A DNA stretch of 64,000 bases from Chloroflexota bacterium (GTDB lineage Bacteria > Chloroflexota > Dormibacteria > Dormibacterales > Dormibacteraceae), in NCBI GenBank assembly GCA_005880795.1, contig VBGP01000009.1, positions 1-64,000 on the forward strand, given 5' to 3'. Shown here piece after piece: positions 1,298-17,388 of the stretch; the stretch's first letter is position 1; every line of letters begins with the position of its first letter. A program made the translations under genes and the position numbers. The notes under the pieces are model-generated. The model did no database searches, was not told where the DNA came from, and saw nothing but the letters and a program-made list of their open reading frames with translations.

Positions 1298-3568
<2,271 letters not shown>

Positions 3569-3615: not shown

Positions 3616-4755
3616 CTAGAGCCGCTTGAGTGCGACCACCGTCACGTCGTCGAACAGGTCCTTATCCCGCGCGCCGTGGGCAAGGATGTCGACCATCTCC
3701 TGGGCGGTGCCGGCCCGGCGCGCCTCGTAGGGGAGCTGGACTTCCTTTGTCGCGAGGTCCGGCCGCAGGTCCAGCAGCCCATCGGAGAAAACGACCAGCG
3801 AGTCCCCCGGCTGGAGTGTTACCCGCCCCGCGACGAACTGCGTGTCGGGGAAGATGCCGATGGGAGCGCTGCGATGCGGAAGCAGCTCCTGGCCCTTCGC
3901 TCCGCGAAGCAGCCGAGCGTGGCCGTGTCCTGCATCGACGTAGTCGAGCTGCCCCGTGCGCGGGTCGAACGTGCAGTGGAAGACCGTGACGTATGCGTGG
4001 CTCACCTCGAGCGCGGCAGACATCACGCCGGCGGCCTGCTTGATGCCCGCCTCCAGCGGCGCGACGCCAGATACGCCCCGCAGCGCGGCGCGCGCGGTGG
4101 CCATCATCAGTGACGCCGGCAGGCCCTTGCCCATCACATCGCCCAGCGTCACCGCGATCCGCTCTTCTCCCGCCCGGTACCAGTCGTAAAAGTCTCCGCT
4201 GATCTCTCGCGCCGCCGTGAGGTGAGCGGCGACCTCGAACCCCTCCTCCCTCAAAGGCGAGGCAGGCAGCATGCCGGCCTGGAGCTCGGAAGCCCGCCGC
4301 ATCTGTTCCACGCGCTCCGCGACCAGGCCCTCGAGCCGGTCGAGGTTGGCCCGGTTGTCCAGCTCGAGGCTGCGCCGGCGCAGGTTGTTGACAACAAGAA
4401 GGTAGAGCTGGGTTGCGCCGACAGGCTTGACGTGGTACGCGAACGCCCCGTGTTCGAGCGCGGCCTTGCCGAGCTCAGCGTCATCGACCCCGGAGATCAT
4501 GACCACGGCCGTGTCCGGCCTGGTCGAACGAAGCTCCTCGAGCAAGCCGTAGCCCGACTCGTCCGGAAGGCGCACGTCGAGCAGGGCGACCGCGTAGTCG
4601 TTCGCCTCTACGAGGCGGCGAGCCTCGGCGGCGCTCAAGGCCACGTCGCACTCGAAGCCCCGGCTCCGGAGGGTGCGCGCCATCACCCGCGCGAGCGGCT
4701 CGTCGTCGTCCACGACCAAGACACGTTCGGTGGCTTTGGAGCCGGCCACGGCCAT
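3616..4755 (-). CDS. Response regulator with PP2C/SpoIIE-type serine phosphatase output
   Basis: A 379-residue protein. Residues 10-125 form a receiver with phosphoacceptor Asp60 (ALLDVRLPDESG). A linker helix follows (130-170), then a PP2C-like SpoIIE/RsbU phosphatase domain with the metal-ligand motifs EISGDFYDW, LGDVMGKG and VFSDGLLDLR. Proteins of this build dephosphorylate a STAS anti-sigma antagonist and so release a sigma factor, under phosphorelay control. The STAS and RsbW-like genes start about 50 bp away on the other strand, so this is very likely their phosphatase. Confidence 0.9.
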   Translation of the reverse strand: MAVAGSKATERVLVVDDDEPLARVMARTLRSRGFECDVALSAAEARRLVEANDYAVALLDVRLPDESGYGLLEELRSTRPDTAVVMISGVDDAELGKAALEHGAFAYHVKPVGATQLYLLVVNNLRRRSLELDNRANLDRLEGLVAERVEQMRRASELQAGMLPASPLREEGFEVAAHLTAAREISGDFYDWYRAGEERIAVTLGDVMGKGLPASLMMATARAALRGVSGVAPLEAGIKQAAGVMSAALEVSHAYVTVFHCTFDPRTGQLDYVDAGHGHARLLRGAKGQELLPHRSAPIGIFPDTQFVAGRVTLQPGDSLVVFSDGLLDLRPDLATKEVQLPYEARRAGTAQEMVDILAHGARDKDLFDDVTVVALKRL

Positions 4756-4806
4756 GCAGTGTAGAGAGGCTAAAGTCCTCGCTTTCTGCCATATGCTCTT
4801 CCGGCT

Positions 4807-5148
4807 GTGGCTCTCGACGTTCAGACCCGCCAGACGGAGGGCGGCATCTCAGTGGTCGTCCCCACCGGCCGCCTCGACGTTGCAGGCGCCCCGGCGCTGA
4901 AAGACGCGATCGGAGAGCTGGTCAAGAACGGCCCGCCGCGGGTGGTCATCGACATGGAGGGCATCAGCTTTGTCGACTCCACCGGGCTGGGCTCCGTGAT
5001 CTCAGCCCTGAAGCAGGTCCGAGGCAGCCAGGGCGACCTGCGGCTGGCCGCCCCCAACCAGCAGGTCAGAGTGGTGCTGGAGCTCACCACGCTCGACCGC
5101 GTGTTCCCTTACTACGCCACTGTCGAGGAAGCCCTCACTGGCTTTTAA
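4807..5148 (+). CDS. STAS-domain anti-sigma factor antagonist (RsbV/SpoIIAA-like)
   Basis: A 113-residue single STAS domain. The conserved phosphorylatable serine is Ser58 in FVDSTGLGS. In the family, the unphosphorylated form binds the RsbW/SpoIIAB kinase and frees a sigma factor; phosphorylation by the kinase inactivates it. The start is GTG 4807. The next gene, 4 bp downstream, is the RsbW-like kinase, and the PP2C phosphatase is divergent, so all three parts of a partner-switching module are present. No sigma factor gene is seen in the window. Confidence 0.92.
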   Translation: MALDVQTRQTEGGISVVVPTGRLDVAGAPALKDAIGELVKNGPPRVVIDMEGISFVDSTGLGSVISALKQVRGSQGDLRLAAPNQQVRVVLELTTLDRVFPYYATVEEALTGF

Positions 5149-5152
5149 GCCT

Positions 5153-5566
5153 GTGAGGAGTCAACCCTTTGAATTCCGCGCCAGCTTCATCGACCTCGAA
5201 GAGGGGCTCGACGTCCTGCACCAGTCGATGGAGCGCCTGCGCAGCGCGACCGGCCGCACGCTGGAAGACCGGCCGCTCATGCTCTTCGAGACCGCGCTGG
5301 GTGAGATCGGCAGCAACGTCCTCACACATGGCCGGCCGCCGGGCACCGAAAAGCCCGTCGACTACGTCCTTCGGTTCGATGCCGGCGTGGTCGAGGCTTC
5401 GCTCACCGACTCCGGCGCCCCAGCTCACGAGCACCTGGCTCGAGAGATGCCCACGCATGACAGCGAGCAGGGCCGTGGCCTCGCAATGGCGCGCTCGCTG
5501 CTCGACGAGCTTGGTTATCGACGCGACGGAGAGGTCAATCGGTGGCGGCTGGTGAAACGGCTTTGA
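5153..5566 (+). CDS. RsbW-like anti-sigma serine kinase (stand-alone HATPase)
   Basis: A 137-residue GHKL ATPase domain. The N-box is visible as ETALGEIGSNVLTHG, G1 as DSGAP and G2 as GRGLAMARSLLDELG. It has no dimerisation/phosphotransfer domain, which fits the RsbW/SpoIIAB family that phosphorylates STAS partners and sequesters a sigma factor. Start is GTG 5153, 4 bp after the STAS gene. Its 3' end overlaps the next gene, a stand-alone DHp-like domain, so an alternative reading is that the two products act as a split histidine kinase. Confidence 0.85.
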   Translation: MRSQPFEFRASFIDLEEGLDVLHQSMERLRSATGRTLEDRPLMLFETALGEIGSNVLTHGRPPGTEKPVDYVLRFDAGVVEASLTDSGAPAHEHLAREMPTHDSEQGRGLAMARSLLDELGYRRDGEVNRWRLVKRL

Positions 5567-5781
5567 ACCAGGACAGCGAGCACATCGAGGATCCCGGTCG
5601 CGTGCTGATCCACGACTTTCGCAACCTGCTCGCCGTGATCGTGAACTACAGCGAGCTCATCGGCGAAGAGCTGAACGACCCGGAGGCGATTCGCGCGGAC
5701 ATTGCCGAGGTGAAGGCGGCGGCTGAACGAGCCATCGTGCTGACGGAAAAGCTGCCTCTCCTGGGAAGGCCCCGCGCGTGA
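5542..5781 (+). CDS. Stand-alone DHp (HisKA-like) domain protein
   Basis: A 79-residue protein that is nothing but a dimerisation/phosphoacceptor hairpin. The first helix has LIHDFRNLLAVIVNYSEL, which matches the H-box of HDFNNLL-type histidine kinases with His24 as candidate phosphoacceptor. The second helix ends ERAIVLTEKL. There is no catalytic ATPase domain, so it cannot phosphorylate itself. GTG 5542 gives a 25-nt overlap with the RsbW-like gene; TTG 5563, overlapping the stop TGA, is an equally plausible start. The next gene (receiver-GGDEF) overlaps its stop, so receiver phosphorylation by or through this hairpin is a reasonable inference. Confidence 0.75.
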   Translation: MAAGETALNQDSEHIEDPGRVLIHDFRNLLAVIVNYSELIGEELNDPEAIRADIAEVKAAAERAIVLTEKLPLLGRPRA

Positions 5782-6782
5782 CTGTCACCAGACGGGTGGG
5801 CGTGGGACCTGAGCGACCTCGCTCCGCCTTGGTCCATCGCGACATCGCGCTGGTCGTCGATGACGACGAGCAGGTGCTGCGCCTGGTCAAGCGCGTGCTG
5901 GAGCGAGCTGGGTTTGAGTGCATCACCGTCAACGACGGACAGGCGGCCCACGACGCCGCGGTCGAGTGGCGTCCCGACATCATCCTGCTCGACCTCATGA
6001 TCGGAGAGGTCACGGGCGACCACGTCATGTCAGAGCTCCGCGACGACTTTCGTACGCGTCTCATCCCGGTCGTGTTCCTGACGGTCAGAGATTCGCTGAA
6101 GGACAAGGTCGAGCACCTTCTTTCCGGCGCGGACGACTATGTGACCAAGCCTTTCATTCCCGAGGAGCTCGTTGCTCGCCTGCGTGCGGTGATGTCGCGC
6201 TCCACAACGACTCGTGGACTCAGCCCACTCACGGGCATGAGCGGAAACAGCGACATCCTTCGCGAGATCACGCGCAGACTTGCCCAGAGCGAGCGCTTCG
6301 CTGTGCTCTACCCCGACATCGATTCGTTCAAAAGCTACAACGACCACTACGGGTTTCTTCGAGGCGACGACGTGATCAAGACGCTCGCCACGATCATCCT
6401 TGAGGTCCTCGAAGAAAACCATTCCGACCACCACTTCGCGGGCCACGTCGGGGGCGACGACTTCGTGGTCCTGACCGAGCCGAGCATCGCTGAGACGATC
6501 GCGACGGAGATCACGAAGCGGTTCGACCAGGCGATCGTCGCGCTCTACGACCCAATCGACCGCGATCGCGGATGGATCGAGTCCGAAGAGCGCAATGGCA
6601 GCATGCTGCGCACCCCCCTCGTCTCGGTGTCCATCGGGATCGTCATCGCCGAGCCCGGCAGCTACAGCAGCGCGGCCGCGGTGGCCGCTCGTGCCTCCGA
6701 GGTGAAGGGTGTCGCCAAGCGCATGCCGGGCTCGAAATGGGTGCTTGACCGTCGGCGGCCACCGGAGCGATTCAGCTCTTGA
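5778..6782 (+). CDS. Receiver-GGDEF response regulator (PleD-like, GGDDF variant)
   Basis: A 334-residue protein. The N-terminal receiver (about 20-140) has VVDDDEQ, phosphoacceptor DLM in ILLDLMIG, and the lysine in VTKPF. The C-terminal GGDEF-type domain (about 155-315) retains the metal-binding DIDSFK block and VSIGI, but its active-site signature reads GGDDF rather than GG[DE]EF. It may make cyclic di-GMP weakly, or act as a nucleotide-binding sensor. The GTG start overlaps the preceding gene, and its stop overlaps the start of the Tad ATPase fusion, so it is translationally coupled to the pilus motor. Confidence 0.85.
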   Translation: MTVTRRVGVGPERPRSALVHRDIALVVDDDEQVLRLVKRVLERAGFECITVNDGQAAHDAAVEWRPDIILLDLMIGEVTGDHVMSELRDDFRTRLIPVVFLTVRDSLKDKVEHLLSGADDYVTKPFIPEELVARLRAVMSRSTTTRGLSPLTGMSGNSDILREITRRLAQSERFAVLYPDIDSFKSYNDHYGFLRGDDVIKTLATIILEVLEENHSDHHFAGHVGGDDFVVLTEPSIAETIATEITKRFDQAIVALYDPIDRDRGWIESEERNGSMLRTPLVSVSIGIVIAEPGSYSSAAAVAARASEVKGVAKRMPGSKWVLDRRRPPERFSS

Positions 6783-9700
6783 GCGACGTCACGATCGAAG
6801 CAATCGCCGGACCACCTGACGACGCAGCCGCGCGAGCGCCGCGCGTCAAGGTGGTCATCCACCGCCTGGACGGCGGGCTGGAGGACGGCGAATCGGACTC
6901 TCGCACGATCACGACGGCGGGCTTTCCCGTCTACTCTCCTTCGGATCCGGATCGGGCGCGTTTCGTGCCCAGTCGCGACATCAAATACGTGGTTTTCGGT
7001 TCGGCGGACGACCCGGCCCTCGAGCCTGATCCAGGCGATAGCAGCACCGCGCGCAAGGCGATCCTCCGCTTCCGTGATGGTGAGTGGATCGCGGCATACA
7101 TCGAGCAGGGCGCGCAGCCTGTGGGAGACGGCATCGCGATCAAGATCCGGCTGGCTGAGATCCAGCGCGTGATCCCGGCGGTCGCGGCCTCGCCCTCCCT
7201 TCTAGAGATGCAGTTCGTCGACATGTGGACCGCCACGGCCGCGTCCACAACTCATCCCCAGCGGCGGCGCTCCGACGTGCTGGAGGCAGCGGCGAGGCAG
7301 GGCAGGGACCTGAACAAGCTCGCGAACGATTTTCGCGACCGCCTCGCCATGATCCGTGACGTCGGCCTCACGACCGGCGACACGCTGGCCTTCTCGCGAG
7401 CCGTCCGCACCCACCTCGATCGATTCCTGCTCGAGGAGAGCATCGTCCTCAACACTCAGGAGAAGTCAGCGCTCGCCGACCTCATCCTGCGGAAGGCAGT
7501 CGGCTACGGCCCTCTCGACAGCCTGCTGCACGACCGGTCGGTGAGCGAGATCATGGTCAACAGCCCGGACGAGATCTACATCGAGCGGCGCGGCGTCCTG
7601 ACCAAGGCCGATGTCCGGTTCGAGGACGAGAACCAGCTGCTGGAGACGATCCGCCGCATGGTGGCGACGACCGGCCGCCACATCGATGGTCTCAACCCGA
7701 TGGTGGACGCGCGCCTTCCGGACGGCAGCCGTGTCAACGCCATCATCCGTCCCGCGGCGATCCACGGTCCGGCGCTCACGATCCGCAAGTTCAAGGACGC
7801 CGTCCTGGGCATGGAGGACCTGAAGCACGAGGGAAGCCTCAGCCCCGCCATGGCGGAGTTCCTACAGGCGGCGGTGCTGGGGCGCATGAACATCCTGGTC
7901 TCCGGCGGAACCGGCTCCGGCAAGACCACGACGCTCAACGTCGTCGCGCGCTTCATCCCGCACAACCAGCGCGTGATCACCATCGAAGACGCAGCCGAGC
8001 TGCAGATCGATCACCCCCACGTCATCGCGCTCGAGCACCGTCCACCCAACGTGGAAGGCAAGGGCGAGCTCACCATCCGGCAGTTGCTTCGCAACAGCCT
8101 GCGAATGCGACCCGACCGCATCCTCGTCGGCGAGGTCCGCGGCGCCGAGGCGCTGGACATGCTGCAGGCGATGAACACCGGCCACGACGGATCGATGTCG
8201 ACCATCCACTCCAACTCGGCGCGCGATGCGCTTTCGCGCCTGGAGACGATGGTGATGATGGCCTCGATCGACATCCCGTTCGAGGCGGTGCGGGCGCAGA
8301 TCGCGTCCGCGGTCAACCTGATCGTGCACCAGGCGCGCATGCCTGACGGGCGGCGCAAGGTCGCCCAGATCGCAGAGGTGGTCGGCTACGACTCGAACGG
8401 CCCCATCCTGCGCGACATCTTCCTGCTGGGCATGGGCTCGGACCTCAGGCTCGAGTACAACGCCACCGGCTATGTGCCGACCGCCCTGGACAAGGCAGCC
8501 TTCTACGGCGTGCAGGTCAACCAGGACCTGTTCGACCCGGTGAAGTCGCGCTACGTGCCGGCCGGGTCCGACAGCATGATGCCCGTCGTCAAGGACCCGA
8601 TGATGTCGGGCCAGGGCAGGAGCGACAACGTCGAGCGCCGGACGGTCGTGGTCGTGCCATTCAGCTCGGAGCGACCCGCATCCCGTCCGACGAGTGGCGG
8701 GCCGGCACAGGCAGAGGCGGCGCCCGCCGCCCAGACCCCGGAGATGCAGGAGGAGATGCGCAAGCTCATCGACGCCGCCCGCTCAGCCGTCGCCGACCTC
8801 CAGGCAGCGGCGCCGCAACCGGCCGAACACCCTCCGGCGGTGACGAGCGCGCCGCCACAATCAGCGCCGGCCGCGTATCCGGCTCCCGCGCCTGTGGCGC
8901 CGATCGTCTACCCCACCCAGGCGCCGCCCGCCTACGCCGGCGGGGCGCCGACGCCACCGCCGGCCTATTACTCGCCCCAGCAAGACCTCCACGCGGGCCA
9001 GGCGCTGGAGGCTGCCACCGCCATGGCTCGCGCCACCACCGCCCTCGGCCAGCTTGCCGCGGCATCGAGCGGGTTTGGCGGCATGCTGCCGACGGTCCGC
9101 GGGACCGAGGGCGCACCGGGGCCGGCCGGCGCATCGCGCCGGATCCAGGCAGTGATCGAGAGCATCATCACGCGCCGCGGGCTGAGCTTGCGCCTGGCCA
9201 ACGCGCTCACCGAAGCCTTCGAGGGCGCGGAGCTGAAGGGGAGCGACTACGCGAGAGACAACAAGATCAGCAAGGATTCGGCAGGACGCGAGCTGCGCCT
9301 GGCCGGTGAGGCCGGCCTTCTGCAGACCGTGCGCTACCCCCAGGGCGAGGCCGGGTTCCGGGCCTCGCAGGGTCTGCTCCGCGAGATCGCCGAGGGACTT
9401 GGGCAACCTATCAACGCCGCAGCCCCGCTGACCGCGGAGACGATCATCGGCAGCCTCGCGGTCGGCCAGACGGAAGGCACCGTCACCATCATGTTCACAG
9501 ACGTCGAGGAATCGACGCGGCTGCTCTCGACACGGGGCTTCACCGCCTCACACGAGATCATGAAGGCGTACGAGACGATCATCGACGAGACGGTCAACCA
9601 GCACGCAGGCCGCAGGATCAAAGGTCTCGGGGACGGGTTCATGATCAGCTTCGGCTCAGCCCGGCATGGCGTCGAATGCGCGCTCGACATCCAGCAGGCC

Positions 9701-11599
9701 ATCGGCGACTACAGCAAGCAGAATCCCGAGCGCAAGCTGCGCATTCGCATCGGTCTCAATACGGGTGAGGTCGTTGAGGAAGCCGGTGACATCTTCGGCG
9801 CCGCGGTGAACGTCGCGGCTCGAGTCGCGGGCAAAGCGAAAGGCGGCGAGATCCTCGTCTCGGAGATCGTCCGCCAGCTGGTGGGCCCGATTACCGAGAT
9901 GAAATTCGATTTTCGCGGCCGCTACAAGCTCAAGGGATTCCCCGACCGATGGCGGCTGCACCAGGTCACGCCGGGCGAGGTGAAGGAATCGCATCGCGTG
10001 CTCACCTCCGGCGATGGTTTTGTCGACCGAGAGCAGGAGCGGCTCGACATCCGGATTGCGCTCGACCGGGCTGCCACAGGCAGCGGATCGGTCATCTTTC
10101 TGACCGGCGCCCCAGGCATCGGCACATCGCGTCTCGCCTCCGAGGTCGCGGGCGAAGCGGCCGCCAAGGGATGGCTCGTCCTGAGCGGGCGCTGCCTCGA
10201 GAAAGATGGCGAACCGTATGGGCCGTTCCGGGATGTGCTGGCCGCTGCTGTCGGGTCGGCTACCGCGAAGACGCTGCAGGAGGCGGCCGGCCACCACGGC
10301 CCGCTGCTCGCATACCTCGCACCTGCCCTTCGCCAGAAGGTCCGCGCCATGCCGGTCGCGGCCACGATCGGGGCCGACAAGGTTCGCGAGCAGCTGTTCA
10401 AAGCGACGCACGCATTCCTGGACCGCGTGCAGGGCGCCAAACCGCTGCTGATCGTGCTGGACGACCTGCAGTGGGCCGATGAAGCGACCGTCATGCTCCT
10501 CCGGGACCTCGCGGAGAGAGTGAACGGAAGCAGGATGGTCATCCTGGGCACCTACTGGGACTCGGAGCTGGACTCGGCCAGACCGTTTGCCACGGCGCTT
10601 TCGCGACTCCTGAAGCGGCGTCGAGCGCAGAGGATTGCTCTGAGCAGGCTCTCCGACCACGATGTGGAACGAATCGTCACGGGCATGACCGAGACTCCGT
10701 TGCCCCCCGTTCAGCTGCTGGGCATCCAGGCGGCGACCGAGGGCAACCCGCTCTTCGTCGAGCACTCGTTCCTCTATATGTCGGAGTCGGAGAGCATGCT
10801 CGGAGGTGCGCGTCCGCAGTCGAGCTACACGGAAGAAGACCTCGAGCTTGCGCAGAGCGTGCGCGGCCTCATCGGCCGGCGGATCCAGCGGTTGAGCGAG
10901 CCTGCGCAGCGAATGCTCGTCGCGGTCGCGGTGATCGGGCGAGATTTCGACGTCGCACTGCTCGAGTCTTTCGGTGAGCTCTCCGGTCACGAGCTGCGAG
11001 AAGCTCTGGACGAAGCGACGCGTGGACATTTTCTTGTCGCCGCCGGAAAGGACTCGTACCGCTTCGCCCACGACCTCGTTCGCCAGCGTGTTCTCGCGGC
11101 GCTTCCGCTGCCACGACTCCAGGCATACCACCTCGCGGTGGCCGAAACCCTCGAGCGCGTTTACGGCAAGACCGCGCAAGACCATGCGAGGGAGATCGGC
11201 TATCACCTCTACCAGGCGGGCACGGCGGCGGATCCGTTCCGCACCGCCGTCTTCCTCGGTCAGGCTGCGGGCAACGCACTCACCGTCGGTGCTTTCGAGG
11301 AAGTGCTGCGCCTGGTCGACTCGACCCTGCAGCTGATGCCGGCGGACAGGACAAGGGAGCGGGCCGAGGCGCTGGCCGGACGCGCGCAAGCGCTCTGGGG
11401 CCTGGGCCGGATCGAGGACGCTAAGTCGGCCTGGAAAGGGGCGGTCGAGCGTTACGAGGAGCTCGGCGATCGCAAGGCGGCCGAAGTCCTCCACCGCCGG
11501 ATCGCGCACCTCGACTCGCGTGGTGAAGCGCACGAGGCCAACGGGGCGGGTCCCGCTGAAGCGGCGGCGCCGCTCGAAGCGGAGGTCACCAGCAGCTAG
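6779..11599 (+). CDS. Tad pilus ATPase (CpaF/TadA) fused to class III cyclase, STAND/AAA ATPase and TPR-like region
   Basis: A single uninterrupted 1606-residue ORF from TTG 6779. Residues 1-150: domain of unknown function, rich in beta strands by eye. 160-590: complete CpaF/TadA secretion ATPase with Walker [10 protein letters not shown] (376-384), [13 protein letters not shown] and MSTIHSNS. 630-740: Pro/Ala-rich linker. About 785-875: winged-helix-like segment. 895-1065: class III adenylate/guanylate cyclase domain with MFTDVEEST (metal Asp908), KGLGDGF (Asp952) and NVAAR (Asn1011, Arg1015). 1080-1450: STAND/AAA-type ATPase with degenerate Walker [10 protein letters not shown] (no lysine) and Walker [13 protein letters not shown]. 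1450-1590: helical TPR-like repeats. The first half powers Tad pilus assembly or retraction; the second half is normally a separate signalling protein. The cyclase residues look competent, but substrate choice cannot be settled by eye. Confidence 0.93.
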
Positions 11600-13620
11600 T
11601 TGGTGATCCGGCTCGCCTGCGGTACGGGTGCGTAGCTCGAGCTGAAGCTCATGCTCGGCAGCGAGCCGCTGAAGGCGATCATGTCGGCGATCAACCCGCC
11701 GCCGCCGGCCGCCTCGAAGGTGTACGGCGAGGTGATTGCGACGGAGGCGGTGGGGCAGTAGACCAGGCCGATCCAGGCGCCGTTGCTCCGGGCACCGAGC
11801 GTGTTGGAGCAGCCGTTGGCGGGGGGCTCATAGAGTGCGATCCAGTTGTACTGGTAACCGCTGAAGACGTACGTATCGCCGCTGTTGTTGCTGTTGAAGC
11901 ATCCACCGGCGGGAAGGTTGAACTCAACAGCCCCGGGCGTGATCGGGCCGGGACACGAGATGTAGGCGTTCCCAACCGACTTGCAGTTGTTCTCGTTGGC
12001 GCGATCTCCGGCGGCTCCTGCCCCCCGCGCCGGGTTCTGGTTGGGCAGGCCGGCCGCGAGCGGTGCCCTCTCGGGGTCGGGAGGATAGGCGCCGGTCGTA
12101 CCTGGCGCGGCTCCGGCGTTGGGCGCAAAGGGCGCCGCCAGCTGATTCGAGAGGATGATCGACTCGTTACCGAGCGAACAGCCGTTGCCGTTGACGTTCG
12201 GACACGGGAAGAGGTTGCCGTTGCTCACCGACCCGCTGACCGGAACATTCGCGGCCAGCCCGAAGGGACCGGTGCATCCATTTCCTGGCGGGGCGGCGTA
12301 GATGTTGTACGACGTCGCGCCCGGCACGTTGCTGAATGCGACCTGGACGTTGTCGAAGTGGTTGTTCAGGTTGATCTGGTCGCACATGGAAGGCGCGCTC
12401 TCGCGCGTGTAGCTGACGCCGTTGTAGGTGTCGGTGCGCAGCGAGGTGACGACGAACGACCAGATGCCGGTCTGAATGTCGCGCGGGCCGGACTGCTTGG
12501 TGAGCTGAAAAGCCCCTGCGCAGGTGAGCCCCCCACCGACGTCCCAGAACTGGTTGGCCGCGCGCAAGGTGTTGTTCGAGGCGTTGGGCTCGTCCGGTGG
12601 TTTCAACTCGTTGCTCACCAGGTCTCCGTCGTTGACCGCACCGGCCAGAAACGTGTAGACGCCACCACTCAAGAACCAGCAGTGGTTGCCGCTGACCGAG
12701 GCAAGCGAGGAATAGATTCCCGCCGGAACCACCACGCTGCCGGAAAAGCTGACGCTGCCGCCGAGCAAGCTCGGCGCCGGGTAGCCGGGATCGGGTAGGC
12801 GGTAGCCGGAGCGCGTGGCGCCGGCGACATCCGGATACGAACAGGGAGCCGACGCGTCGCTCGGATAGCACGAGTTCGTCACCGACCCCGGCACCGTGGA
12901 CTGGCAGTTGGCGTAGATGTCGCCGGCCACACGCACGGTGCCACCCGTCACGGAGACGGCCCCGTTGCTCACCAGGTCGCCGATGAGGTCCAGGGTCCCC
13001 GTGCCGTTGATCGTGATCGCCGCGCCGCCCACGCCGCCGCAGCCGTCCTGGTCGAGTGCTGCCACCGTCGGTGTGTAGAGGAGGTTGTTCACGTTGCCCT
13101 GGGCCGCGGCGCCAAGGGTCGGGTTCGAGCCGTTCGTCAGCACCCGCCCGAACTGCAGTTGAAGGCTCCGGGTGGCCGTGAGCGTGAACCGGCTGCCCTG
13201 GGGACCGGTCGCCCTCGCGACGTCGGTGAGCACGGTGCCATCCGAATATGTGCATGTAACGGTCCACGGGCTTGCCCCGGGCGTCCCGTAGGCGGTGCAG
13301 GCTGGCGCGGAGTAAAGGCGGAGGTTGGTCCCGAAGATCGCGGTCGCGGCCTGCTCGGCGCTGACGTAGCTGCCGGTCTGCTGCATCTTGTCGGCTGCGG
13401 CCAGAGCTGCCGCGTCGGTGGCGGCCTGGATGTCGCGACGCAGCGCGTACGCCCGCGATCCGTCGATCGCGATCGCTACCATCCCGATGAGGACGGTGAG
13501 CATGAGCGCGATCAACACGATGGCCTGCCCGCTCTGCTTCCCCCTTCGCTTCCCCACTCGCTGGGGAAGCTGTCCCCGCGCGAAGCGCGCGGACTGATGG
13601 GGAGCTAGAACCCCTTTCAT
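11596..13620 (-). CDS. TadG-like pilus assembly protein with large exported region
   Basis: A 674-residue protein. After a basic leader (1-30) there is one transmembrane helix (SGQAIVLIALMLTVLIGMVAIAIDGSRA), followed by the TadE/G-like stretch RRDIQAATDAAALAAADKM. This is the signature of TadG/Flp-assembly minor components. The remaining ~600 residues are Gly/Ser/Asn/Pro-rich with several cysteines and beta-rich repeats, and would lie outside the membrane. It is convergent with the ATPase fusion; the two stop codons share the tetranucleotide CTAG. It lies 3 bp after tadE. The basic leader is partly encoded by palindromic hairpin sequence at 13550-13592. Confidence 0.8.
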   Translation of the reverse strand: MKGVLAPHQSARFARGQLPQRVGKRRGKQSGQAIVLIALMLTVLIGMVAIAIDGSRAYALRRDIQAATDAAALAAADKMQQTGSYVSAEQAATAIFGTNLRLYSAPACTAYGTPGASPWTVTCTYSDGTVLTDVARATGPQGSRFTLTATRSLQLQFGRVLTNGSNPTLGAAAQGNVNNLLYTPTVAALDQDGCGGVGGAAITINGTGTLDLIGDLVSNGAVSVTGGTVRVAGDIYANCQSTVPGSVTNSCYPSDASAPCSYPDVAGATRSGYRLPDPGYPAPSLLGGSVSFSGSVVVPAGIYSSLASVSGNHCWFLSGGVYTFLAGAVNDGDLVSNELKPPDEPNASNNTLRAANQFWDVGGGLTCAGAFQLTKQSGPRDIQTGIWSFVVTSLRTDTYNGVSYTRESAPSMCDQINLNNHFDNVQVAFSNVPGATSYNIYAAPPGNGCTGPFGLAANVPVSGSVSNGNLFPCPNVNGNGCSLGNESIILSNQLAAPFAPNAGAAPGTTGAYPPDPERAPLAAGLPNQNPARGAGAAGDRANENNCKSVGNAYISCPGPITPGAVEFNLPAGGCFNSNNSGDTYVFSGYQYNWIALYEPPANGCSNTLGARSNGAWIGLVYCPTASVAITSPYTFEAAGGGGLIADMIAFSGSLPSMSFSSSYAPVPQASRITN
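13550..13592. repeat. Tandem hairpins inside the tadG leader
   Basis: Two inverted repeats are visible: TTCCCCA/TGGGGAA (13550-13556 with 13562-13568) and a CGCGC-GAA-GCGCG stem (within 13576-13592). They are translated as part of the positively charged leader of TadG. A related hairpin of C-run/G-run type lies in the leader of tadE (14152-14171). This resembles palindromic repeats that have invaded coding sequence, though composition alone could also produce it. Confidence 0.6.
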
Positions 13621-13623
13621 GAG

Positions 13624-14202
13624 TCAGTACTCCGTCCGGTAGACCGCCGCAGCCGAGATGACCACATGGTTGGCCGTCGCCTGGGCCACGATCGGGGTGA
13701 TCAAAACGAGGTTGAAACGGACCGTGACCTGGACCTGCGAGTTGCCCGAGGCGGGGTTGACCGCGCTGCACGATCCGCTGGCGATCGCGGCATATTCCCC
13801 TCCTGGCGCGTTGGGCGGCGGCGTGCTCTCGACGCCTCCTGGCGGGCTCGGCTCGGTGATGTAGACCCAGGCGGAGTTGGCCGGTGGGGTAGCTCCCGTG
13901 ATCGGGCCCTGCGGGCAGGGCGCGGAGACCGGCGCGCCAAGCATCTGGCCGCTGACGGCGTTGAGCACGTCCGTGTCGGTGGGCAGCTGGTTGGAGGCGC
14001 GAACTGCGACTCGCGCCCCCTCACGCGCTGCGTGGTTGATCGTGTCGTAGTAGAAGATTGCGCGCCCGATGTCGATGATCCCGAACAAAAGCAGAAGCAG
14101 CACGGGCGACACCAACGCGAACTCGATCAAAGCCTGGGAGCGTTGTCTTTTCCTCCCCACTGGTGGGGAGGTGGCCGGCGGACCGAGGGGCTGGTACATC
14201 AT
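13624..14202 (-). CDS. TadE-like pilus assembly protein
   Basis: A 192-residue protein with a short basic leader, one N-terminal membrane helix in RSQALIEFALVSPVLLLLLFGIIDIGRAIFYYDTINHAAREGARVAVR and an exported C-terminal domain. The E-F-A-L and R-E-G-A-R elements are diagnostic of TadE. TadE proteins are pseudopilin-like, normally processed by a prepilin peptidase and required for Flp pilus assembly. I chose ATG 14202 because it overlaps the stop of the upstream tadE-like gene (TGATG); an open frame runs further upstream but only as a shadow of that gene. Confidence 0.88.
   Translation of the reverse strand: MMYQPLGPPATSPPVGRKRQRSQALIEFALVSPVLLLLLFGIIDIGRAIFYYDTINHAAREGARVAVRASNQLPTDTDVLNAVSGQMLGAPVSAPCPQGPITGATPPANSAWVYITEPSPPGGVESTPPPNAPGGEYAAIASGSCSAVNPASGNSQVQVTVRFNLVLITPIVAQATANHVVISAAAVYRTEY
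14152..14171. repeat. Hairpin in the tadE leader
   Basis: CCTCCCCAC and GTGGGGAGG flank a two-base loop, giving a nine-base-pair stem within codons 11-17 of tadE. It is of the same general type as the hairpin in the tadG leader. Confidence 0.6.
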
Positions 14203-14786
14203 CAACTTCCCTGTACCGTCATGTGCTCGTTCGCCGCGACCTGGAAGACGCCGAACTGCGACTTCACGAGTGGGGTGAGCGGCCCGTACGTGTAAAGCAC
14301 GATCACGTTCAGGTCCAGCTGGCCCTGGTTGGTCGCGGGGCTCGTGAAGTCCAGGCCGGGCGTGTTGTTGTAGCAGATGTACAGCCACGGCTGGTTGGCT
14401 GTGGCGGGGTACGCCGATGAGACAAACGGCGGGTTGTGGACCGTGTTTCCGTCGGTCGGCGTCGGGCACGTCGTGCCGGGGTTCTTGAGCACCGAAGCGG
14501 GGAGCGAGATGGTGGCGAGCTCGGCGTCCACCGCAAGCTTGATCTCCGCGTCGTAGAGATAGGGGTGTGATTGGGCCGGGGCCTGGAACCAGGCCCCATG
14601 CCTCGCGCCTTCGCGGGCCGCGTTGGAAAGCGCCTCCGAGACGTAGATCGATCGCCCGATGTCGACCAGCCCTCCGACGAGCAAAAGCAGGATCACGGAC
14701 GACACCGCAAACTCGACCAGGGATTGCCCGCCCTCGTGCAAATGTGGCGTTTTGAGTATCAGGTAAGGGGGGCTCGGCACCGGCAT
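14202..14786 (-). CDS. TadE-like pilus assembly protein (second paralogue)
   Basis: Up to 194 residues. The N-terminal part has GGQSLVEFAVSSVILLLLVGGLVDIGRSIYVSEALSNAAREGARHG, the same leader-plus-helix pattern as the neighbouring TadE, followed by an exported region with paired cysteines. It is probably a second pseudopilin-like subunit. ATG 14786 leaves only 23 bp to the divergent cpaB start, so a shorter product from TTG 14741 should be considered. It overlaps tadE by one base and forms a three-gene leftward unit with tadE and tadG. Confidence 0.83.
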   Translation of the reverse strand: MPVPSPPYLILKTPHLHEGGQSLVEFAVSSVILLLLVGGLVDIGRSIYVSEALSNAAREGARHGAWFQAPAQSHPYLYDAEIKLAVDAELATISLPASVLKNPGTTCPTPTDGNTVHNPPFVSSAYPATANQPWLYICYNNTPGLDFTSPATNQGQLDLNVIVLYTYGPLTPLVKSQFGVFQVAANEHMTVQGS

Positions 14787-14809: not shown

Positions 14810-15571
14810 TTGCGGACGTTTAGCGCAATTACCTCGCGCCGGCCATTCACCCTGCTCGGCGTACTGCTGGCTCTCGTCGTGATCGTGGCCTTCGTCCTCG
14901 TAGCTCTCAACGCCAGCCAGGCGGGGATCAGTCCCACTCAGACGGTCGTGGTGGCGAACGCCAACCTGCAGCCCAGGATCCCGATCACCGAGGCCGACCT
15001 GACGACGCGGACGATCCCGGTGCCGTCGAACTACCCGAAGGTCTACTTCGCCAAGGTTCCAGACGTCGTGGGAATGGTGCCGCTCGTGGCCATCCTCATG
15101 GGCGAGGTGGTGTCCTCCAACGACGTGGCCAAGGCCACCCAGGCGCTCGGCTCTCAGTCCGAGTACCTGGCGATTCCCAGGGGCTACGTAGCCCTGACCA
15201 TCCCGACCAGCGAGCAGCAGGGCGTGGCGGATTACATCCAACCCGGCGACTACATCTCCGTGATCGCCACCGTGACAACAGGAAGCAAGGTCGCTGTGAA
15301 GACGATCTTCACCCAGCTGCACGTGATCAAGGTCGGCGCCCAGTCGACCGCCGGCAATTCCAACGCAAGCAGCCTCACTGTCGTGGTCACCCAATGCGAG
15401 GCCGAGGTCATCACGTGGTTCTTGACCTACGCCGCCCTCAAGTACTCGCTCGAGTCGTACCACGATTACGCGCCTGGCGAGCAGGCTCCCGACCCGAAGT
15501 GCCCTAGCGTGGGCGACGCCAAGGGCGTCACGCTGCAGGTCATCCAGGCCGCCTTTCCGACCCTCTTCTAG
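14810..15571 (+). CDS. cpaB: CpaB/RcpC-like Flp pilus assembly protein
   Basis: A 253-residue protein with one N-terminal membrane helix (FTLLGVLLALVVIVAFVLVAL) followed by a SAF-like domain (VVVANANLQPRIPITEADLTTRTIP, then a G-E-V-V-S-S-N-D-V segment) and an RcpC/CpaB-type beta domain (YVALTIPTSEQQGVADYIQPGDYISVIATV). CpaB is an accessory periplasmic or cell-wall component of Tad pilus machines. The start is TTG 14810 with no obvious ribosome site. The next gene begins at the base after its stop. Confidence 0.85.
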   Translation: MRTFSAITSRRPFTLLGVLLALVVIVAFVLVALNASQAGISPTQTVVVANANLQPRIPITEADLTTRTIPVPSNYPKVYFAKVPDVVGMVPLVAILMGEVVSSNDVAKATQALGSQSEYLAIPRGYVALTIPTSEQQGVADYIQPGDYISVIATVTTGSKVAVKTIFTQLHVIKVGAQSTAGNSNASSLTVVVTQCEAEVITWFLTYAALKYSLESYHDYAPGEQAPDPKCPSVGDAKGVTLQVIQAAFPTLF

Positions 15572-16510
15572 GTGAATCTCCCGCCCGAGACGATCGTCGC
15601 GGTGCCGATGGCGGCCGCCATCTTTGTCTTCTTCTGGGCGCTCGACAGGGTCCGCAAGGAGCGCCGGGTCTCCGACCCGCTGCCGGCGCGTGCCACGCCG
15701 CGAGAGCTCGTCGAACGCCTGCTGAAGCCGGCCGCCGAGAACCTCAGCCAGCGCCGCAAGGTGCAGGGAAAGCCGACTCTGACCGAAGACCTGGCTCGCG
15801 CCGGCTTGAACCTGACCGCCCCTGAGTACCTGCTGATGCGGATCGGCGCCGTAGCCCTCGGCGCGCTGATCGGCCTCTTCCGATTCGGCTTCACGCTGGG
15901 TCCGGTGATTCTGGGGGTGATCGGGTTCATCATCCCGCCGCTTGTCGTGGCCTACCTGCAGCGCCGCCGCCAGCGCTTGTTCAGCGAGCAGCTCGCAAGC
16001 ATGCTGCAGCTCCTGTCGAACTCACTGAAGACGGGCTATGCGATCGACCGCGCGCTCGAGACAGTCGCGTCGAAATCGCAGCCACCGGTGTCGACAGAGT
16101 TCGAGCGCGTCGCGACCGAGATCACTCTGGGCACCTCAGTCGAGGATGCACTCAGCGCGTTGCTGCTGCGCATCAACAGCCCCGACCTCGAGTTCATCGT
16201 GACCGCGATCCTGCTCCACATTCGGGTAGGCGGAAACCTCGCCGAGGTCCTCGACAACATCTCAGACACGCTGCGCGACCGCCTCCAGACCAAGCGCGAC
16301 ATGAGCGTGCTGACTGCACAGTCGCGCGCTTCGGCGAGCATCATCACCGGCCTGCCCATCCTGCTAGCGCTGGGACTCTACGTTTTCGTCCCCGGCTACT
16401 ACGCACCGATGACGAGCACATGGGTCGGCTACGCGATGCTGGGATTTGCGGGATTCATGATCCTGATGGGCAACCTGATCATCCGGCGCATGACCACCTT
16501 GGAGGCATAG
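15572..16510 (+). CDS. tadB: TadB-like inner-membrane platform protein
   Basis: A 312-residue type II secretion F-domain protein. There is one N-terminal helix, then a cytoplasmic stretch (30-85), two close helices (about 90-130), and the T2SSF domain (LASMLQLLSNSLKTGYAIDRALETVA), ending in two C-terminal helices. TadB and TadC form the membrane platform on which the CpaF ATPase acts. The GTG start directly abuts the cpaB stop. Confidence 0.9.
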   Translation: MNLPPETIVAVPMAAAIFVFFWALDRVRKERRVSDPLPARATPRELVERLLKPAAENLSQRRKVQGKPTLTEDLARAGLNLTAPEYLLMRIGAVALGALIGLFRFGFTLGPVILGVIGFIIPPLVVAYLQRRRQRLFSEQLASMLQLLSNSLKTGYAIDRALETVASKSQPPVSTEFERVATEITLGTSVEDALSALLLRINSPDLEFIVTAILLHIRVGGNLAEVLDNISDTLRDRLQTKRDMSVLTAQSRASASIITGLPILLALGLYVFVPGYYAPMTSTWVGYAMLGFAGFMILMGNLIIRRMTTLEA

Positions 16511-16512
16511 CG

Positions 16513-17388
16513 TTGCTGCCGATTGCAATTGCTGCCGGCGTCATCTGCGGCGCGGTCGTGTTTGGGTACTTCATCGCGATCGATCAGTTCCGTGCCGCGG
16601 CCGCCAACGGCGGGCATATCACTGGCGCACCTCGCCAGACCTTCGTCAAGCAACTCGAGCTGGTGCTGCGTCCGGTGTCACGCCTGCCCACGCGGACAGC
16701 GCTGCAGCTGAGGCAGAAGCTGAGCCAGGCCGGCAACCCCGGCGGGCTGACCCCGACCGGCTTCCAGGCGGTCCGCTACAGCCTCGCCGCGTTGATGGCG
16801 ATCGTCGGGCTCGGCGTCGGACTGCTCGTGCCTCTTACGTTGCCTGACTTCGTTTCCGCTCCGCTGGCGGGGGCGGTGTTCGCCGCAATCGGGTTCATCC
16901 TGCCTGGCCTCTGGCTAGAGCAGCGCATCAGCCAGCGCCGCCACCAGATTCAGCGCTCGCTGGCCGAAGCGACCGACCTGCTCACCCTGGTCGTTGAGTC
17001 CGGCATGAGTCTTGACGAGGGCATGCTCAGCATCGTAGAGCGCTTCCACAACGCGCTTGGCGACGAGATCGGCAAGGTCTTACGCGAGATCCGGTTGGGC
17101 CGGCCCCGCATGGCTGCCCTCGAGCACATGGCCGACACGGCCGGCGTGTCTGACCTGCATCACCTCGTCGAATCGATCGTTCAGTCGGACCAGATGGGCG
17201 TGCCCATCGCTCGCCTTCTTCGGGTGCAGGCGACGGAGATGCGTCGTCGTCAGCGGCAGGGTGCGCAGGAGCGTGCGGCCCAGGCCTCCTCGCGAATGGT
17301 GTTTCCTATGGTCGGGTGCATCTTCCCCGTGCTCTGGGTGGTGCTGCTCGGCCCGGCCATCATCCAGGTGCTGAAATCACTTCATTAA
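16513..17388 (+). CDS. tadC: TadC-like inner-membrane platform protein
   Basis: A 291-residue T2SSF-domain protein paralogous to TadB, with RSLAEATDLLTLVVESGMSLDEGMLSIVERF and a second F-domain half (HHLVESIVQSDQMGVPIARLLRVQATEMR). I moved the start to TTG 16513 because GGAGG at 16501-16505 lies 7 bases upstream and an N-terminal helix (LPIAIAAGVICGAVVFGYF) follows; the frame is open further upstream only inside tadB. It is the last recognisable Tad gene. Confidence 0.9.
   Translation: MLPIAIAAGVICGAVVFGYFIAIDQFRAAAANGGHITGAPRQTFVKQLELVLRPVSRLPTRTALQLRQKLSQAGNPGGLTPTGFQAVRYSLAALMAIVGLGVGLLVPLTLPDFVSAPLAGAVFAAIGFILPGLWLEQRISQRRHQIQRSLAEATDLLTLVVESGMSLDEGMLSIVERFHNALGDEIGKVLREIRLGRPRMAALEHMADTAGVSDLHHLVESIVQSDQMGVPIARLLRVQATEMRRRQRQGAQERAAQASSRMVFPMVGCIFPVLWVVLLGPAIIQVLKSLH

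Follow-up and report, generated by a model that had tools for sequence, protein, structure and literature searches.

The window, i.e., the whole analysed stretch of 64,000 nucleotides, contains a Tad pilus locus with an open reading frame of 1606 codons (6779..11599, + strand), which begins with TTG, is devoid of internal stops and encodes a TadA/CpaF-cyclase-STAND-like fusion protein. The start codon overlaps the stop of the upstream gene by 4 bases (TTGA), an arrangement observed in the window and two relatives. This upstream gene (5778..6782, +) codes for a response regulator-GGDEF protein, the motif of which reads GGDDF instead of GGDEF or GGEEF and is invariant in 16 of 16 loci checked. 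Further upstream, genes were identified for a hybrid histidine kinase (1298..3568, +), often kept at fusion loci, and for the three members of a partner-switching cassette (3616-5566): response regulator-SpoIIE phosphatase (3616..4755, −), STAS anti-anti-sigma-like protein (4807..5148, +) and RsbW-like HATPase_c_2 protein (5153..5566, +). The cassette is present at every fusion locus with sufficient flank. A simple scan for promoters and terminators found none.

Downstream, the convergent gene for a TadG/TadE-like protein (Pfam Tad; 11596..13620, −) overlaps the stop of the fusion gene with its own stop. It is accompanied by genes for two TadE-like pseudopilins (13624..14295, −, start uncertain; 14202..14786, −), both assigned by reading and kept across loci, RcpC/CpaB (14810..15571, +; profile match), a TadB-like platform protein (15572..16510, +; by reading and position) and a TadC-like platform protein (T2SSF; 16507..17388, +; profile match). 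The flanks kept among fusion loci comprise the genes for RR-SpoIIE, STAS, RsbW-like and RR-GGDEF proteins upstream, as well as TadG-TadE-TadE and CpaB-TadB downstream. In some genera the TadG-like gene is tandemly duplicated (L040:12871-17081, L043:12833-17314). No Flp_Fap match was obtained in the window; Flp-type pilin genes are located on other contigs (G000:C55:30515, C163:38643, C165:41325). Among the ORFs read and scanned in the Tad locus of the window, neither a TadZ/CpaE gene nor a second TadA gene was found. All five other TadA-type motors of the source genome that were read are unfused. The fusion is assigned as a Tad motor because of its motifs and gene neighbourhood and, as judged from gene content, it is the only motor ATPase that the locus encodes.

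The encoded protein is composed, in this order, of an N-terminal domain, the CpaF/TadA motor, a Pro/Ala-rich linker, a winged helix, a class III cyclase, an AAA_16/STAND-like part and a helical tail. Three Pfam matches, all far over cut-off, delineate this architecture: T2SSE (aa 242-518, E 2e-67), Guanylate_cyc (aa 897-1056, 1e-22) and AAA_16 (aa 1081-1253, 1e-27). The sequence-only reading had described a single frame joining a complete CpaF/TadA ATPase to a class III cyclase via a Pro/Ala-rich linker and a winged-helix-like segment, and each of these elements was recovered. The motor ATPase (7502..8332, +) retains Walker A (GGTGSGKT; 7904..7927, +, aa 376-383), Asp box, Walker B and His box in all copies. 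Its best NCBIfam model is TadA (TIGR03819), which it matches with 327 bits versus a cut-off of 373.15, this hypothetical-equivalog model being narrower than the CpaF/TadA family. Ahead of the ATPase lies a helical segment (7271..7498, +; aa ~165-240) at the position of the three-helix bundle of CpaF (as judged from the model and PMC12019362).

The N-terminal ~150 residues represent a further domain passed over initially (6839..7222, +; aa ~21-148), which is predicted to fold into two small, five-stranded beta-barrels of SH3/Sm/Tudor-like type (pLDDT ~90). It yielded a weak DUF6982 match under cut-off and no hit to the PDB at E<=0.001. An assignment as PilZ receptor for c-di-GMP was unsupported, with weak Tudor/Sm-like matches only. 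Such barrel pairs, weakly DUF6982-like, are carried by TadA-type motors of this class, among them an unfused one from another family (L130) and a second one from a genome with a cyclase-less motor (G021; L132).

Motor and cyclase are connected by the Pro/Ala-rich linker (8579..9127, +; aa ~601-783), the least conserved part of the protein, and by the winged-helix domain (9128..9448, +; aa 784-890). The latter has no Pfam match, and its assignment is supported by a predicted structure with the succession H-H-H-beta-beta (pLDDT about 85). The class III adenylyl cyclase domain (9467..9946, +; aa 897-1056) possesses all six catalytic residues: D908 and D952 for metal binding, K948 and D1004 for adenine recognition, and N1011 and R1015 for transition state stabilization; they are invariant in the fused copies. 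Since a Lys/Asp pair (K948/D1004) occupies the adenine site, ATP is the predicted substrate and cAMP the predicted product of a presumably active enzyme. The model of the domain can be superposed on two adenylyl cyclases of known structure, Ma1120 and Rv1900c, with 30-38% identity. For the C-terminal half as a whole, a pTM of 0.32 was obtained, so the relative placement of the domains is not predicted with confidence.

The subsequent part (10019..10537, +; aa 1081-1253, Pfam 98 bits) had been read as a STAND-type ATPase, of which the AAA_16/STAND NTPase fold stands and the ATPase function does not. The P-loop is degenerate (GAPGIGTSR; 10106..10132, +, aa 1110-1118) and carries T1116 (codon 10124-10126) in place of the lysine. 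All 20 fused proteins examined have Thr, Ala, Met or Gly at this position, whereas the lysine is present in 49 of 49 stretches from unfused homologues. In view of this loss, the STAND-like part is unlikely to be an ATP-driven switch; the nucleotide-driven STAND switch envisaged at the outset is therefore abandoned, and the domain is, by its residues, catalytically dead rather than a functional STAND ATPase. The tail (11216..11518, +; aa ~1480-1580) produced one weak TPR_2 match (E 0.006) and is predicted to be an all-helical, TPR-resembling array (pLDDT about 90).

A search for the joint architecture among 110 genomes of the class revealed matches across the motor-cyclase joint in 28 genomes, which represent seven genera of a single Dormibacterota family of uncultured soil bacteria; one of the 28 carries an N-run close to the joint. 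When the phylum was sampled evenly (121 genomes; query aa 541-1056), the fusion was likewise found solely in this family. Full-length, stop-free relatives with 71-95% identity exist within the genus as well as in further genera of the family, and these frames from independent MAGs exclude the joining error that had initially been considered. Named relatives of the fusion gene originate from MAGs of soil Chloroflexi and Ca. Dormibacterota. In single MAG copies (G007, L010; L057), the fusion frame breaks, probably due to sequencing or assembly indels. A near-identical fragment was observed on a 3.7 kb contig of a MAG from another family (G083:C220; L129); it is probably misbinned, and an occurrence of the fusion in that family was set aside.

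Trees of the motor and cyclase halves have 10 of 13 splits in common; the halves therefore descended together. Ratios of dN/dS amount to 0.016-0.06 for the motor and, close to this, 0.025-0.08 for the cyclase, followed by 0.09-0.18 for the AAA_16 part and 0.14-0.31 for the linker, indicating that all parts of the fusion are under purifying selection.

Two further genera (G021, G108, G109; loci L051, L052, L054) encode proteins with the same N-terminal domain, motor, linker and winged helix at ~60% identity, which end or change to a different tail at the point where the cyclase starts. In the two stretches long enough (L051, L054), TadG-TadE-TadE and CpaB genes follow the cyclase-less motor. 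Homologues are not always split at the joint: fused relatives exist, and those devoid of the cyclase at the orthologous locus reveal the direction of the fusion. The seam could be placed by junction alignment at 9455..9475 (+; aa ~893-899), where cyclase-less relatives end or diverge and unfused cyclase-AAA_16 proteins begin. Cyclase-less orthologues together with unfused modules starting at about the seam demonstrate that the cyclase/STAND module was added to a motor that was already complete; the winged helix, being shared with cyclase-less relatives, belongs to the motor half and not to the cyclase half. The upstream signalling cassette was not found beside the cyclase-less motor of L054, where genes for metabolism and transport are located instead.

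A candidate for sensing the predicted cAMP is encoded away from the Tad genes: a TadZ/ParA-like protein of 424 aa with an N-terminal cNMP_binding domain (G000:C76:19305-20576; L154:9803-11077, −), here termed cNMP-TadZ. Its identity amounts to 90-98% across the fusion-bearing genomes possessing it and to 65-66% in genomes with the cyclase-less motor. An orthologue remained undetected (E 1e-60) in the six family members devoid of both protein and Tad system and in 68 genomes from other families of the class. Within the family, 31 genomes have cNMP-TadZ and the Tad system, 3 the system only, 2 cNMP-TadZ only and 6 neither; this co-occurrence (Fisher p 4e-4) is suggestive only, as the genomes are related and incomplete. 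Glu and Arg of the ligand site are kept in 13 of 13 orthologues aligned, whereas the aligned paralogues lack the Arg. These features single out cNMP-TadZ as the best candidate reader of cAMP formed by the fusion; since it accompanies the cyclase-less motor too, the reader, if it is one, predates the fusion. Cyclic-nucleotide-binding TadZ-like proteins are also encoded at two other Tad loci of the source genome (L136:3126-4514; L137:6240-7463, −), in either case beside the genes for a canonical TadA and a HEAT-repeat protein; their cNMP domain is degenerate or has lost the ligand Arg. Such proteins beside canonical TadAs were set aside as cAMP readers, the ligand Arg being absent from the paralogues aligned. 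Nine class III cyclase domains and further cAMP-capable readers are encoded in the source genome, and cAMP need therefore not be private to the pilus.

Class III cyclases act as dimers with shared active sites. CpaF hexamers are reported to assume C2-symmetric and other conformations, which change with nucleotide (PMC12019362). Six cyclase domains tethered to the motor ring could pair head-to-tail into as many as three dimers. How well they pair, and hence the amount of cAMP, would be set by the conformational and occupancy state of the motor (idle, extending or stalled); tethered in this manner, cyclase activity would be sensitive to ring conformation. The dead STAND/helical part may serve as scaffold or partner-binding regulator instead of as an ATP switch, and the loss of its own P-loop would fit a handover of control to the motor. 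Cyclic-nucleotide-binding proteins, with cNMP-TadZ as best candidate, would then sense the cAMP. We infer the activity and product of the cyclase, the geometry of hexamer and dimers, the coupling to motor state and the identity of the reader. That the hexameric motor arranges the cyclases such that cAMP output follows motor state is favoured with modest confidence. The more far-reaching proposal, in which the motor is its own sensor, converting mechanical or nucleotide state directly into cAMP by means of cyclases built into its own chains, with the loop to pilus assembly closed by a cAMP-binding TadZ, is advanced tentatively. Against cNMP-TadZ as reader speak its location outside the Tad locus, its occurrence with the cyclase-less motor and the shared ancestry that confounds the co-occurrence.

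The length and variability of the linker argue against coupling, as it could uncouple the parts. They are compatible with an active cyclase that is co-localised with the motor and regulated by the STAND/helical part following it; the fusion would then merely provide placement at the pilus base and fixed stoichiometry. Proteins of the cyclase-AAA_16-TPR type act as independent sensors elsewhere; however, none of the fused copies examined has kept the P-loop that the unfused proteins retain. This points to a transfer of regulation to something else and renders the uncoupled arrangement somewhat unlikely. Still less probable is a coupling in the reverse direction, in which the C-terminal module is the input and the motor is gated either by local cAMP or by partners that bind the STAND/helical part. 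The conserved helical tail and the two-component and partner-switching genes kept beside the fusion agree with such gating, but the strict conservation of the cyclase catalytic set is beyond the needs of a pure input domain. It is very improbable that the halves work apart following processing or an internal start: the flexible Pro/Ala linker could be cut, yet every fused lineage has preserved the frame even though splitting would be easy, and at position 769, where Met could act as an internal start ahead of the winged helix, some members have Val or Gln. An assembly or binning artefact, conceivable for a window from a MAG of 217 contigs, has a negligible probability given that the same join recurs with conserved flanks in the 28 genomes of seven genera, which stem from several studies.

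A survey of 292 CpaF orthologues distinguished three classes (minimal, N-terminal IDR and FHA-IDR), which differ at the N-terminus only, and names neither a C-terminal addition nor a C-terminal enzyme (PMC12019362). The fusion fits none of these classes, as its additional domains follow the ATPase domain. Proposed early on to be an undescribed type of motor, the architecture is indeed absent from this one published CpaF survey found (PMC12019362), and searches of the open-licence literature on TadA-cyclase fusions, Dormibacterota Tad pili and cNMP-TadZ retrieved no description of a protein of this kind. In common with CpaF/TadA, the fusion has the helical segment, the T2SSE ATPase with all motifs and a Tad locus with CpaB, TadB, TadC, TadE and TadG; it differs by the two-barrel domain replacing IDR or FHA and by about 1000 extra C-terminal residues. 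Fold and catalytic residues of the cyclase are those of Ma1120 from Mycobacterium avium, its nearest relative of known structure (matched structurally at 33-38% identity), and of Rv1900c/LipJ, which, unlike the fusion, are without a pilus motor. The domain order of aa 895-1580 recurs at <=40% identity in unfused cyclase-AAA_16-TPR proteins, for example from an Actinomycetota MAG (L059) and Dormibacterota family f2 (L128), in which, in contrast to the fusion, the P-loop lysine is present. The cyclase-AAA region of the TOMM kinase/cyclase fusion (TIGR03903) aligns at aa 879-1511 with 149.5 bits, below the cut-off of 705.75; according to the name of this model its N-terminus is a kinase, while that of the present protein is a pilus motor.

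The conserved fusion of pilus motor and cyclase is thus real and apparently undescribed, and it touches on the question of how pilus activity is converted into an internal signal. Cyclase-less orthologues at the same locus provide a natural control, and the module's own ATP switch has apparently been removed. In the Pil-Chp system of Pseudomonas and the Tad system of Caulobacter, surface sensing by pili leads to a second messenger (cAMP or c-di-GMP), the cyclase being a separate protein, whereas in the fusion it is part of the motor. To our knowledge, motor and cyclase of the known systems are separate proteins with several steps between them; here, one molecule could drive the pilus and make cAMP, rendering direct coupling of motor to messenger addressable with a single protein.
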